32,598 nucleotides of DNA from a virus. Both the position numbers and the translations under genes were made by a program. Location of the stretch: the IMG/VR virus record IMGVR_UViG_3300035157_000195, positions 1 through 32,598 of that record; one strand, written 5' to 3'. The notes under the pieces are model-generated. The model was not told the DNA's origin and did not search any database. It saw only the letters and a list, made by a program, of their open reading frames with translations. Below are positions 3,734 through 31,618 of this stretch, one piece after another. Position 1 is the stretch's first letter, and each line of letters starts with the position of its first letter.

Positions 3734-4900
3734 ATGGCATCTAGAATTAAAGTTGATGAAGTAACGAATAGGAATGAATCGGGAGCCGTAAGCTTCCCGA
3801 CTGGAGGTGCTTCTTTTAGTGGTAATGTATCCGTTACTGGAAATATAGATTTTACTGGTACTCTATTACAAAATGGACAACCATTTGTAACTCTACCAAC
3901 TCAGGATGTAACTAACATTGGTGCTGTTCTGAGATCTGGTGGTAGTAGTGGTCAGGCTTATTGGGATGAAGGTGGAGAAGGAACTGCAGGAGGTGCGAAT
4001 CAGGCAGCATATAAAGCAGGATTTGATATAACCAGAGGATTTAGTCAGTGTGGATATCGTGGAGGAACCTCTTACAAGAACGTTAATAGACTTGTACACT
4101 CAACATTTACTCAGAGTAATCTAGGAGATTTAACTACATGGTCAGGTGCTTATATTGACTCTGCATGGAACACATCATTTAAGAGTTACATATTCTGTAC
4201 TGGAGATAGTTGGAACGCAACTACTGACCTAGTATCATCTATCAGTATGGTGACAGAAACCAATACTGGTGCAGCAACCTCTATGGCAGGAACAAAACAT
4301 AGAGCTACCTGCATGAAGAAAGATTTTACTTTTGCATATGTACATGGTGGTGGTAATAGCAGCAACATGGTAAAATATAACTTATCAACTGCTGCAAACT
4401 CTTTTAGTACAAACCATCCCAATGGTACACAGAACAACCCTGCTGGTGGACAAGGTGCTACTGTAGGTTGGATTGCTACTGGTAGTAAACAAAGTTTCAA
4501 CTTCTCTACCGAAGTATTCCATGGTTGGACAGACGGACCAGGAACTGACGGTACTAACAAAACACTCTCAAGTAGAAATGGTTTTGGGTACTGGAACACT
4601 GGTGGTGGTTATCGTACTTCTAGTGACTGGCATGTAAGAGATTCTTACAATGGTGGTCGTAGAGCATCTGTCAGTAAAAATGGCATAACTACTGGTGAGG
4701 AAACGATGCATACTGGAAACGAGTATGGATTTATTTGTGGTCAGTATGATGGTAACCAGAATAACAATGGTTATCTATTTACTTACGCAAGTCACAGTTT
4801 CCAAAGAGATAGTCGAATGGATAGGAGTGGTCCTCCAGGAACAGCATCTGCTGCTGGTTCCGAATATGGTACCTTAATGTACGGATACACAGGATTCTAA
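3734..4900 (+). CDS. Putative virion structural protein, possibly kelch-like beta-propeller (388 aa)
   Basis: It begins 6 bases after the previous stop. The N-terminus (MASRIKVDEVTNR, then SFSGNVSVTGNIDFTG) looks like a fibre attachment segment with short beta repeats. A Gly-rich hinge near residues 70-95 precedes a body of loosely repeated units of about 50 residues with GG, aromatic and Asn-rich turns (for example YVHGGGNSSNM and VFHGWTDG). This is reminiscent of kelch-like propellers in marine phage surface proteins, but the repeats are too degenerate to count reliably by eye. It ends one base before the next ATG. Most likely a receptor-binding or decoration protein of the fibre cluster; the propeller reading is inference. 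Confidence 0.6.
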   Translation: MASRIKVDEVTNRNESGAVSFPTGGASFSGNVSVTGNIDFTGTLLQNGQPFVTLPTQDVTNIGAVLRSGGSSGQAYWDEGGEGTAGGANQAAYKAGFDITRGFSQCGYRGGTSYKNVNRLVHSTFTQSNLGDLTTWSGAYIDSAWNTSFKSYIFCTGDSWNATTDLVSSISMVTETNTGAATSMAGTKHRATCMKKDFTFAYVHGGGNSSNMVKYNLSTAANSFSTNHPNGTQNNPAGGQGATVGWIATGSKQSFNFSTEVFHGWTDGPGTDGTNKTLSSRNGFGYWNTGGGYRTSSDWHVRDSYNGGRRASVSKNGITTGEETMHTGNEYGFICGQYDGNQNNNGYLFTYASHSFQRDSRMDRSGPPGTASAAGSEYGTLMYGYTGF

Positions 4901-6464: not shown

Positions 6465-8151
6465 GCACTTTGTAGTCAATACATTTCTTCCGTTCTTAGA
6501 AGAATATAAAGAATACATATTAGATTTATATTTCACTTGCAGAATCCCCCCATTCGATCAGGATGCTATGGGGGATTGTTTTGCTGAGAATCAAGCTTTA
6601 ATACAATCTGCATGTTATATTTCAAATAAATCTAATATTCCATTATCAGCTACATTTAATAATATATGGGTGAGACCAGATCAAAAGAATTTAGATCTTT
6701 GGATTGAAAATTTTGCTCCCATTTATAATGCTGGTGTTAGAGTGGTAACACTACCACATACATCATGGGTATCTACTGGTCAGATTCAACAAGCATTTCC
6801 AGATCTGTTTATTAAGAATACTATTCTTAGAGAAGTCACAAGACCTAATGAGATAGTAGCATTAGCAGAGGCTGGATTTCATTATATAAATCTTGATCGG
6901 GATCTCATGAGAGATCGTGATCAATTAATTCGTATTCAGAAGGCAAAGGATTACTGTAAGTTCTTAGGTAAACCTGTCATGTTATCAATGCTAGTCAATG
7001 AAACATGTTGGGGTGGTTGTCCTATCATGCCAGAGCATTATCAATATAATAGTACAAGAGGACCAAAGGATCCTATATTCTTTGCTAGTCCTATTAGTAG
7101 AGTATCATGTTCTACTTGGGATGTACAACATCCAGAGTATGATTTAAAAGCAGCAAATCTTCCACCATGGAGAGATGACTGGTTAGAATTTCTTGAGTTG
7201 GGTATTGATACTTTTAAACTACATGGTAGGGAAAGTATGATGAGACTTCAAGAGAGTATGGATCTCATCAAAAGATGGGCAGCTAAAGAGGAATATATGT
7301 TTCCAGAGTATATTAAATATAATGCTCAATTGGAAATAAAAGATTCTCCTGTTAGGATGTGGAGGCAGAAAATAAAAACATGTAAGTTTGATTGTTGGGA
7401 TTGCAACTACTGTGAGAAAGTAGTAGAATCTCATATGAAGAAAGCTGATCTGATTGTACATCCACAAGTAGAAACTTGTATGGAAGCATTTATTAATTCT
7501 GGTAAGTACTTATCAAATCATAAGGCTTATGATCCTAAAGATCCTGATGCGTATTATAATGTACCTGGATTATCGTCATCTAGAGTAAGACATTTCTTAA
7601 ACAACCTCTGCTCCCAGGAAGGTGCTGTCTATCTTGAAGTAGGTGTGTTTGCTGGATCTACATTCTGTGCAGCTATTCAGAATAATGATATGGTTGCTGC
7701 ATATGCAAATGATAACTGGTCAGAACCAAATCTACAACCAGCTAGAAAGGATATTACTTTACCATTAGAGGATGTTACTGTTAATACTTTTGTTAAAAAT
7801 TTACAGACAAATATAACCACAGACACTTTAGATTTTGATATACAAGTTCTCAATGGTGATTCATCCCAATTGGGTAAGAAAGATTTTAAGGAGAATGTTA
7901 ATATAATCTTTTATGATGGGGATAATGCCGAGCATAAAATGATAGAATTTTTTAACAATATGCTAGGGTTTACTGAAAATGTTTTTACTTTAGTAGTTGA
8001 TGATGCAAATGTAGAACAGAATGTTGCTATCACTAAAGGTTGGGTTGAGAAGCAAAAGTTAAATATTTTATATGAAAGAGAACTTATCAATGATCAAGAG
8101 GATGATAAAATGTGGTGGAACGGTTTATATGTTTTAGTCTTGGCTAAATAA
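6418..8151 (+). CDS. Fusion of peptidase-U32-like Fe-S barrel and SAM-dependent methyltransferase
   Basis: Two parts are visible in 577 residues. Residues about 1-345 look like a U32-family TIM barrel: NETCWGGCP (194-202), a Cys at 231, and DTFKLHGR (264-271), which matches the K-(I/L)-x-G-R strand of U32 proteins. A cysteine cluster C322-x3-C326-x2-C329-x2-C332 could hold an Fe-S centre. Residues about 385-577 look like a class I methyltransferase: YLEVGVFAGSTF (405-416) as the SAM-binding loop, FYDGDN (498-503) and VVDDAN (526-531) as later strands. Known U32 members (UbiU/UbiV, RlhA, TrhP) act in hydroxylation rather than proteolysis. The fusion suggests a two-step modification of an unknown substrate. 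It overlaps the upstream gene by 47 bases. The methyltransferase assignment is firmer than U32. Confidence 0.65.
   Translation: MNKRVFSLPINPKLSEHFVVNTFLPFLEEYKEYILDLYFTCRIPPFDQDAMGDCFAENQALIQSACYISNKSNIPLSATFNNIWVRPDQKNLDLWIENFAPIYNAGVRVVTLPHTSWVSTGQIQQAFPDLFIKNTILREVTRPNEIVALAEAGFHYINLDRDLMRDRDQLIRIQKAKDYCKFLGKPVMLSMLVNETCWGGCPIMPEHYQYNSTRGPKDPIFFASPISRVSCSTWDVQHPEYDLKAANLPPWRDDWLEFLELGIDTFKLHGRESMMRLQESMDLIKRWAAKEEYMFPEYIKYNAQLEIKDSPVRMWRQKIKTCKFDCWDCNYCEKVVESHMKKADLIVHPQVETCMEAFINSGKYLSNHKAYDPKDPDAYYNVPGLSSSRVRHFLNNLCSQEGAVYLEVGVFAGSTFCAAIQNNDMVAAYANDNWSEPNLQPARKDITLPLEDVTVNTFVKNLQTNITTDTLDFDIQVLNGDSSQLGKKDFKENVNIIFYDGDNAEHKMIEFFNNMLGFTENVFTLVVDDANVEQNVAITKGWVEKQKLNILYERELINDQEDDKMWWNGLYVLVLAK
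8144..8150 (+). promoter_or_regulatory. Late promoter box CTAAATA
   Basis: CTAAATA, the marine variant of the T4 late -10 element TATAAATA, lies 26 bases upstream of the ATG at 8177 and overlaps the stop codon of the preceding gene (gct aaa taa). It would be read by host RNA polymerase with the phage gp55 sigma and gp33/gp45 system. Confidence 0.6.
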
Positions 8152-30553: not shown

Positions 30554-30581
30554 AAAGAGACCCTACGGGGTCTCTTTTTTT
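30554..30581 (+). terminator. Rho-independent terminator after gp23
   Basis: A perfect 10-bp stem (AAAGAGACCC with GGGTCTCTTT, loop TACG) runs straight into a T-tract. It lies 21 bases past the gp23 stop and would end the strong gp22/gp23 transcript. Confidence 0.92.
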
Positions 30582-30583
30582 GT

Positions 30584-30590
30584 CTAAATA
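30584..30590 (+). promoter_or_regulatory. Late promoter box CTAAATA after the gp23 terminator
   Basis: CTAAATA begins three bases after the terminator T-tract and 20 bases before the ATG at 30611, so the synthetase-like gene and tRNA have their own late start independent of gp23. Confidence 0.6.
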
Positions 30591-30610
30591 AACTAGTTTG
30601 ACTAAAAATA

Positions 30611-31414
30611 ATGACTGCACTAATTGACCCAAAAAAGTATACTAAGACACTTGACCTATTGAGGTCATTTTTTTTGTCTAGAGGTTTCCTTGAGGTACAT
30701 ACACAGAACCGTTTAAGTATCCTTGCTGCTTGTGAAGATCCAGAAACAGTAGCAACTTATGAATATAACGGTGAAGTATGGCCGTTACCACAGACAGGAC
30801 AGATGTGGTTGGAATATGAACTACTTAAGAATCCAGAAGTACCTGGTTTCTTTTGCTTATCCACTTCATACAGACAAGAACCAAACCCAGTTGAAGGTAG
30901 ACATGAAGTAATCTTTCCCATGTTTGAGTTTGAAATGCACGGTGGTGTAGAAGAACTGGAAGAGATGGAAAAGGATTTAGTCGCACACTTAGGTATTGAA
31001 TTTATGGATTCCCATGTTAAACCATATAAGAAATGGGCAGGAATTTTTGGTCATGAAGAATTAGATCATGACGATGAAGAAAAAATTCAAACAGGTATGA
31101 TTACAGAATTCCCTGAGTGGACATCTCCATTCTGGAATATGGCAAGGTATGATGATGGTAAAACCAGTAAAAAGATTGATGTAATCTTAAATGGTATGGA
31201 AACTATTGGATCTGCTGAACGTAGTACTGATAAGAAACAGATGCGTGATACATTCCATACTATATCTGATGGTGAATATGCTAATCTACTTTACAAATTA
31301 TTTGGTAAGGAAAGAGTAGAAAAAGAACTAGAAGAGTTCCTTGAGTTCGACTTCTTCCCTAGAAGTGGTGGAGGGATAGGAGTTACACGTATCATGCAAG
31401 CAATCCCTGATTAG
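30611..31414 (+). CDS. Stand-alone class II aminoacyl-tRNA-synthetase-like catalytic core (Asp/Asn/Lys type)
   Basis: 267 residues, little more than one catalytic domain. All three class II motifs are visible: motif 1 around FFLSRGFLEVHTQ (20-32, with Gln in place of the usual Pro), motif 2 STSYRQEP...RHEVIFPMFEFE (84-108, Arg88, Glu90, Arg97-His98), and motif 3 SGGGIGVTRIM (252-262, Arg260). The segment IDVILNGMETIGSAERS (189-205) matches the class IIb xNGxE...GSxxR strand of AspRS/AsnRS/LysRS. The N-terminal OB anticodon-binding domain of that subclass is absent, and there is no insertion. Such truncated paralogues include AsnA-like asparagine synthetases of AsnRS descent and EpmA-like lysyl ligases. 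A tRNA with an Asn anticodon starts nine bases downstream, which suggests but does not prove a functional link. Confidence 0.8.
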   Translation: MTALIDPKKYTKTLDLLRSFFLSRGFLEVHTQNRLSILAACEDPETVATYEYNGEVWPLPQTGQMWLEYELLKNPEVPGFFCLSTSYRQEPNPVEGRHEVIFPMFEFEMHGGVEELEEMEKDLVAHLGIEFMDSHVKPYKKWAGIFGHEELDHDDEEKIQTGMITEFPEWTSPFWNMARYDDGKTSKKIDVILNGMETIGSAERSTDKKQMRDTFHTISDGEYANLLYKLFGKERVEKELEEFLEFDFFPRSGGGIGVTRIMQAIPD

Positions 31415-31422
31415 GGATTCTT

Positions 31423-31507
31423 TGTGAGGTGGCGAAACGGTAAACGCTCTAGTCTGTTTAACTAGTGTCTCTGGCGGGACTTGTAGGTTCGACTCCTACC
31501 CTCACAG
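31423..31507 (+). tRNA. tRNA with GTT (Asn) anticodon and long variable arm
   Basis: A complete cloverleaf can be folded. The acceptor is TGTGAGG/CCTCACA (31423-31429 with 31500-31506), followed by discriminator G at 31507. The D arm is GCG/CGC (31432-31434, 31445-31447). The anticodon stem CTAGT/ACTAG has a seven-base loop CTGTTTA, anticodon GTT at 31456-31458. The variable arm has 17 bases with a five-pair stem (31467-31471 with 31476-31480). The T arm is GTAGG/CCTAC with loop TTCGACT. CCA is not encoded. U1-A72 and G73 are bacterial tRNA-Asn traits. The long variable arm and the TGGCG...GGTA D-arm look like tRNA-Leu or Ser. Base 37 is T, where a purine is usual. Asn is the best call from the anticodon. 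Confidence 0.82.
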
Positions 31508-31618
31508 TTAAAACAATATTTATGCTATAGGTATAAACTCGTAGGCATTTCTTTTTGTTAAATGTATCGGTAAATACTGTGCGAATTTCCATACATAGTA
31601 GTAGAATTGGAGAGCAAG
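31508..31618 (+). other. Gap between tRNA and leader ORF; possible late promoter GTAAATA
   Basis: The 111 bases hold no convincing coding sequence. GTAAATA at 31570-31576 is a one-base variant of the late box, 42 bases before the ATG at 31619, and is a weak candidate promoter. No terminator hairpin follows the tRNA, so it is probably co-transcribed with downstream genes. Confidence 0.3.

Follow-up and report, generated by a model that had tools for sequence, protein, structure and literature searches.

The window analyzed here is the whole 32,598-nucleotide stretch of the IMG/VR record IMGVR_UViG_3300035157_000195, a fragment of a T4-like cyanophage genome carrying gp20-gp23 and tail genes. 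After gp23, a late-promoter box, an open reading frame for a 267-residue protein resembling asparaginyl-tRNA synthetase (AsnRS) and a class II tRNA gene lie in succession (Table 1), the tRNA beginning eight bases after the stop codon. The gp23 protein is 91% identical to that of Prochlorococcus phage P-HM1, which has no such cassette between gp23 and gp3. A preliminary description, made from the sequence alone, had reported a class IIb synthetase catalytic domain lacking the anticodon-binding domain, placed just ahead of an unusual tRNA between a terminator and its own late-promoter box, and this observation is confirmed by the present analysis, although the pyrimidine at position 37 of the family and the loss of U33 in some members had escaped notice.

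Table 1. Features of the cassette and its borders (window coordinates).
Position	Strand	Feature	Basis
30557..30582	+	Intrinsic-terminator-like hairpin and T-run closing the gp23 transcript	Direct reading, GAGACCC-TACG-GGGTCTC-T(8)
30585..30590	+	TAAATA late-promoter box, first element of the cassette	TAAATA in the 60 nt upstream of the gene in 88 of 89 related loci, 85 of them at -26 to -30; DNA similarity to P-SSM7 starts here (30580-31600, 77%)
30611..31414	+	AsnRS-like catalytic core, 267 aa (PHROG 29758; 'tRNA ligase', T4-GC 194 in P-SSM2/P-SSM7)	Pfam and PHROG profiles, AF2 model and fold search, invariant active-site residues in 105 homologues, dN/dS about 0.07-0.16
31423..31507	+	Class II tRNA-like gene, 85 nt, anticodon GUU, loop CUGUUUA (U37), U1-A72, G73, 5-bp V-arm, no encoded CCA	ARAGORN, Rfam, covariation, family tallies
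31517..31522	+	TATTTA element 9 nt after the tRNA, conserved edge of the cassette	TATTTA or TATATA within 45 nt after the tRNA in 79 of 83 loci, mostly at 8-14 nt

A synthetase-like core paired with an atypical tRNA

The protein matches PF00152 (E=4.9e-15, residues 12-264) and PHROG 29758, a family of unknown function (E=1.6e-156), and is under strong purifying selection, the dN/dS range in Table 1 being derived from four pairs. An AF2 model (pLDDT 93.8, pTM 0.91) aligns over residues 1-267 to the catalytic halves of AsnRS and AspRS, with no OB fold, and the predicted structure is therefore that of a complete class IIb core and nothing else. The best fold matches are AsnRS (VIA Z 25.9, rmsd 2.3 A over 244 residues), AspRS (24.9), the archaeal asparagine synthetase AS-AR (23.7, 3rex), EpmA (23.1) and LysRS (22.6). 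The ATP-binding residues of motifs 2 and 3, including R88, E90 and R260, are invariant in 105 homologues. In the side-chain pocket the family displays LPQTGQMWLE, with T62, G63, Q64, L67 and E68 each conserved in 105/105, which corresponds to SGQLxxE of AsnRS and not to the lysine-containing SPQLFK of AspRS or SSAILYK of AS-AR-type proteins. Nevertheless, the score against the curated NCBIfam asnS model (TIGR00457) is only 18.5 bits for a cut-off of 342.6, and in a quick tree with long branches and uncertain placement the family forms one clade far from AsnRS, AspRS and AS-AR. Phages with the linked tRNA fall on at least two separated sides of this clade, so the association is old, or was transferred or gained more than once.

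The tRNA was detected both by ARAGORN (Asn, GUU) and by the Rfam tRNA model (52.8 bits), and folds into a cloverleaf with a 7-bp acceptor stem and a long V-arm. In an alignment of 32 relatives, 19 of 24 base pairs show two-sided compensatory changes, so the RNA is real. Its body resembles tRNA-Leu, a covariance model of the family picking mainly host tRNA-Leu as next best. GUU and G73 are kept, with GUC in a single locus (L198), as is U1-A72, which is A-U in one distant group of phages (clade 2), whereas the variable region ranges from 13 to 39 nt. Position 37 is a pyrimidine in 71 of 71 family members and position 33 is C, A or G in 12 of 71, against 124 of 125 with U33 and 124 of 125 with a purine at 37 among 125 other tRNAs scanned in the same way. 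The 71 members in this tally were selected with a pyrimidine-37 filter, but all 75 tRNAs collected without that filter agree, and the copy in the window has U33 and U37. An elongator tRNA-Asn would instead have U33, a purine (A, t6A) at 37 and a short variable loop. G73 and G34-U35-U36 (and, as a lesser element, A37) are bacterial Asn identity elements, and U1-A72 marks Asp-tRNA-Asn for GatCAB (PMC9976931), so the charging marks are kept and the decoding marks are not.

In viral contigs the pairing between gene and tRNA is essentially obligate. At least 595 stretches of viral contigs encode relatives of the protein, and in nearly all close loci with room the tRNA follows the gene by 7-17 nt, or by about 90 nt in loci such as L012, L032, L039 and L049, in which an inserted hairpin element of about 80 nt (AAAGATGGTCTGAGTATT...AATACTAACTGACCATCTTT) separates the two. 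A search with the tRNA alone returned 80 stretches, 72 with the gene immediately upstream, 3 with the gene within 93 nt and 5 with no upstream sequence, and none with room but without the gene. In 50,697 phage records the full tRNA occurs only in P-SSM2, P-SSM5 and P-SSM7, the gene-bearing cyanophages, since two huge-phage records gave a partial, weaker match that is a tRNA-Leu; the pairing was also seen in distant phages. A natural loss of the tRNA next to an intact gene (90% identical) was found in one close contig, L008 (IMGVR_UViG_3300046171_000231, 4798-4830), a 235-kb cyanophage contig that keeps pyrE. The edges of the cassette are constant, TAAATA lying at about -27 and the element after the tRNA being in most cases its reverse complement, while the surroundings vary, 17 loci lying beside gp23 and 62 not. 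Together with the reciprocal co-occurrence and the fact that P-SSM2 has only this tRNA (PMC3037559), these contexts rule out a chance neighbor or a passenger from a tRNA cluster. In P-SSM2 (NC_006883.2) RefSeq places the tRNA-Asn at 164094-164179, but the sequence lies at 162083-162168, directly after the gene (6825-6910 against 4814-4899 in the extracted stretch), and the annotation looks shifted from the coordinates of record GU071092. No third conserved partner was found from the context of the cyanophage loci. In freshwater phages, a full HSP70 gene lies near the synthetase-like gene in 13 viral loci (L241, 2458-4317, +, and 12 others), and a frame joining a polyphosphate kinase 2 domain to a phage lysozyme domain lies near it in L203 (3001-4785, -) and related loci. 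Freshwater jumbo phages also carry odd long-arm tRNA-like genes that share the acceptor AGTCAGG/CCTGACT but have dissimilar anticodon arms (L256 1500-1586, L257 1525-1615 and L258 1794-1887, all on the minus strand); these were rejected as partners because they have A73 and are not linked to the gene.

Linkage to pyrimidine synthesis and a proposed role

The family also occurs in 125 stretches of bacterial and archaeal genomes, and in those tested the class II tRNA is not found near the gene, apart from locus L154, which may be viral. A hidden partner tRNA in cells was looked for with the covariance model, which returned only tRNA-Leu or Tyr hits among those inspected, and by a full tRNA scan of the 831-kb contig 1 of a Patescibacterium (genome G024), which found none; the same contig yields 41 tRNA calls but no tRNA-Asn, even allowing introns, although this may lie on another contig. 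Clustering of the neighbors of 80 cellular loci placed pyrE/pyrF/UMP synthase (OPRT/OMP decarboxylase) beside the gene in 23 and pyrD in 11, including operons in the order gene-pyrE-pyrF (loci L104, L117, L126, L090 and L110), and in Pasteurella atlantica pyrF lies 5 nt downstream. Of 20 such genomes, CarB, PyrB, PyrC and PyrD score over the curated cut-off in 3, 3, 1 and 13, respectively, whereas all 14 control genomes have CarB, PyrB and PyrD over the cut-off and 11 have PyrC. A tblastn search with E. coli CarB, PyrB and PyrC finds nothing in the 831 kb of G024, which has PyrD, nor in 69% of the P. atlantica chromosome, whose weak PyrB hit reads as an ornithine carbamoyltransferase. Genome by genome the picture is mixed: the absence of these three enzymes is supported in G019, G024, G028, G031 and G034 and not in G021, G035 and G037, while G026 and G027 have PyrC-like hits and G038 has CarB. 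Many of these genomes are MAGs or reduced genomes of unknown completeness, several of the 20 lack PyrD as well, and two patescibacterial loci (L118, L139) have an amidohydrolase nearby that could be a divergent dihydroorotase, so PyrC may not always be absent.

A similar link is observed in phages. Among about 457 T4-like cyanophage records (gp23 at least 60% identical), the gene and pyrE, searched independently, occur in the same six, belonging to P-SSM2, P-SSM5 and P-SSM7; pyrE also occurs in some partial marine single-cell virus contigs and in a few unrelated phages. The long T4-like contigs with the gene carry pyrE as well (G001, G014, G159, G160, P-SSM2 and P-SSM7), including G001, which lost the tRNA but kept gene and pyrE, whereas three shorter contigs of 45-60 kb do not; the window, as a 32.6-kb fragment, does not allow the same comparison within its own genome. 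A 312-kb jumbo phage contig (G002, 292735-294635, the contig of locus L172) has DHO-dehydrogenase-like and OPRT-like frames within 2 kb. On the other hand, the phage pyrE sits among replication genes while the cassette has a late box, and freshwater relatives have neither the tRNA nor pyrE in the contigs seen.

Based on these associations we tentatively favor the hypothesis that the cassette is mobile and that its enzyme is the catalytic core of an AsnRS-like ancestor which now works in de novo pyrimidine synthesis, upstream of PyrD/PyrE/PyrF, where its cellular relatives appear to stand in for CarAB-PyrB-PyrC. Asparagine contains N1, C4, C5, C6, the carboxylate and N3 of dihydroorotate, and only C2 is missing; an Asn-binding, ATP-using core in operons that lack CarAB/PyrB/PyrC but contain PyrD/E/F would most simply insert CO2/bicarbonate between the alpha-amine and the amide nitrogen, giving dihydroorotate for PyrD and for the PyrE of phage or host. 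In this view the tRNA would be a dedicated, non-decoding Asn carrier, keeping the positions read by the charging and amidating enzymes of the host (GUU, G73 and, in the cyanophage clade, U1-A72) but not those needed on the ribosome (U33, purine 37), so that Asn could be held for, or handed to, the enzyme without loss to translation, which would be useful if the host holds Asn mainly on tRNA. What the analysis establishes is the pairing, the atypical tRNA, the Asn-type pocket and the pyrimidine association in cells and phages, whereas the reaction, any charging of the tRNA by the enzyme and any physical use of the tRNA are inferred from chemistry and context in the absence of biochemistry. Accordingly, we regard membership in the pathway as well supported and likely, the conversion of Asn to dihydroorotate as possible only, and the carrier role as slightly less likely still. 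The core reaction cannot need this tRNA everywhere, and the conservation of GUU would also suit decoding. The combined reading, in which the enzyme closes the ring directly on asparagine and replaces CarAB, PyrB and PyrC in several bacterial and archaeal lineages, and marine phages carry it with pyrE and a carrier tRNA, i.e. tRNA-dependent nucleotide synthesis, is possible but less likely than not.

ALTERNATIVES and relation to known systems

The interpretation offered in the preliminary description, that an enzyme without an anticodon-binding domain might recognize the acceptor stem and the long arm of its own tRNA, is supported in part. The core, the odd tRNA beside it, the two-way co-occurrence in viruses and the AsnRS-type pocket all hold, but the occurrence of the gene without the tRNA in relatives, which had been named beforehand as refuting evidence, was found in bacteria and archaea and in the viral contig L008, and the cellular homologues lie in pyrimidine operons. 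A private pair in which the core charges the adjacent tRNA with Asn for phage translation, through G73, the first pairs and the V-arm instead of the anticodon, nevertheless remains the main rival, although we consider it unlikely. It is favored by the tight linkage, the pocket, the best fold match to AsnRS and the nearly invariant GUU and G73. In contrast, cellular homologues with the same invariant residues have no such tRNA, pyrimidine 37 and non-U33 would impair decoding, the motif-2 loop (EPNP..GRH) resembles that of the tRNA-independent AS-AR, and no residue separates tRNA-linked from pyrimidine-linked members at the thresholds used.

Less probable is a regulatory paralogue, a non-catalytic subunit or sensor controlling PyrE or the pyr operon, with the tRNA as passenger or antagonist. 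The adjacency to the phosphoribosyltransferase PyrE/UMP synthase recalls HisZ, a synthetase paralogue working with the phosphoribosyltransferase HisG, but HisZ is reported to have no adenylation activity (PMC9437257), whereas here all class II catalytic residues are invariant, and the missing CarB/PyrB/PyrC would be left unexplained. Similarly improbable is a counter-defense tRNA-Asn that escapes anticodon nucleases with a private synthetase to keep it charged; phage tRNAs with loop mutations that evade tRNA-targeting defenses are described (PMC10264068, PMC11555353) and the changes here lie at 33 and 37, but the loss of U33 and purine 37 should damage the translation that such a tRNA must support, and the pyrimidine linkage in cells and phages is not explained.

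The two alternatives put forward in the preliminary description, an asparagine synthetase and an EpmA-like ligase, fare badly. AS-AR (3P8T, 3REX, 3RL6) shares with the family a stand-alone class IIb core of about 270-350 aa with no tRNA domain and a similar EPN..GRH loop, but a free asparagine synthetase is very unlikely because the AS-AR-type proteins examined keep the AspRS lysine (LYKQ in L441-L447, Thermoproteota sequences chosen by weak PRK06462 matches and length in place of a true Thermococcales AS-AR) where the family has L67-E68, family members score at most 33.5 bits against curated cut-offs of 309-389, and the tree places AS-AR with AsnRS and apart from the family. The family also differs in being linked to pyrimidine genes and, in phages, to a tRNA. 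EpmA/GenX and GluQ-RS, which act on EF-P or on queuosine, are likewise synthetase cores that have lost the anticodon domain, but the LysRS-type pocket (LRIAPELYLK, EISNxxxEL) is replaced by GxETIGSAER and TGQMWLE, and acylation of queuosine-34 requires U33-G34-U35, which is not conserved in this tRNA. PylRS-tRNA-Pyl and other orthogonal pairs also join a synthetase gene to an unusual neighboring tRNA with no anticodon recognition expected, but here the anticodon is an ordinary sense triplet within a non-canonical loop and the cellular relatives lack the tRNA.

The gene has been annotated as 'tRNA ligase' in P-SSM2 and P-SSM7 (PMC3037559), and no description of this pair, of a long-arm phage tRNA-Asn or of an Asn route to dihydroorotate was found in the open-access literature, to which the search was limited. 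The system would be categorically new only under the pyrimidine reading; even in the plainer one, a private AsnRS-tRNA pair, it is a compact natural class II pair of use for genetic-code engineering. The first steps of pyrimidine synthesis (CarAB-PyrB-PyrC) are treated as nearly universal, and a single synthetase-derived enzyme that bypasses them would be a new pathway in reduced bacteria and archaea, would explain how organisms with PyrD/E/F but no PyrB/C make UMP, and would reveal a phage metabolic gene hitherto annotated only as 'tRNA ligase' or unknown. A tRNA gene kept with it and stripped of decoding features would be a natural tRNA dedicated to metabolism.
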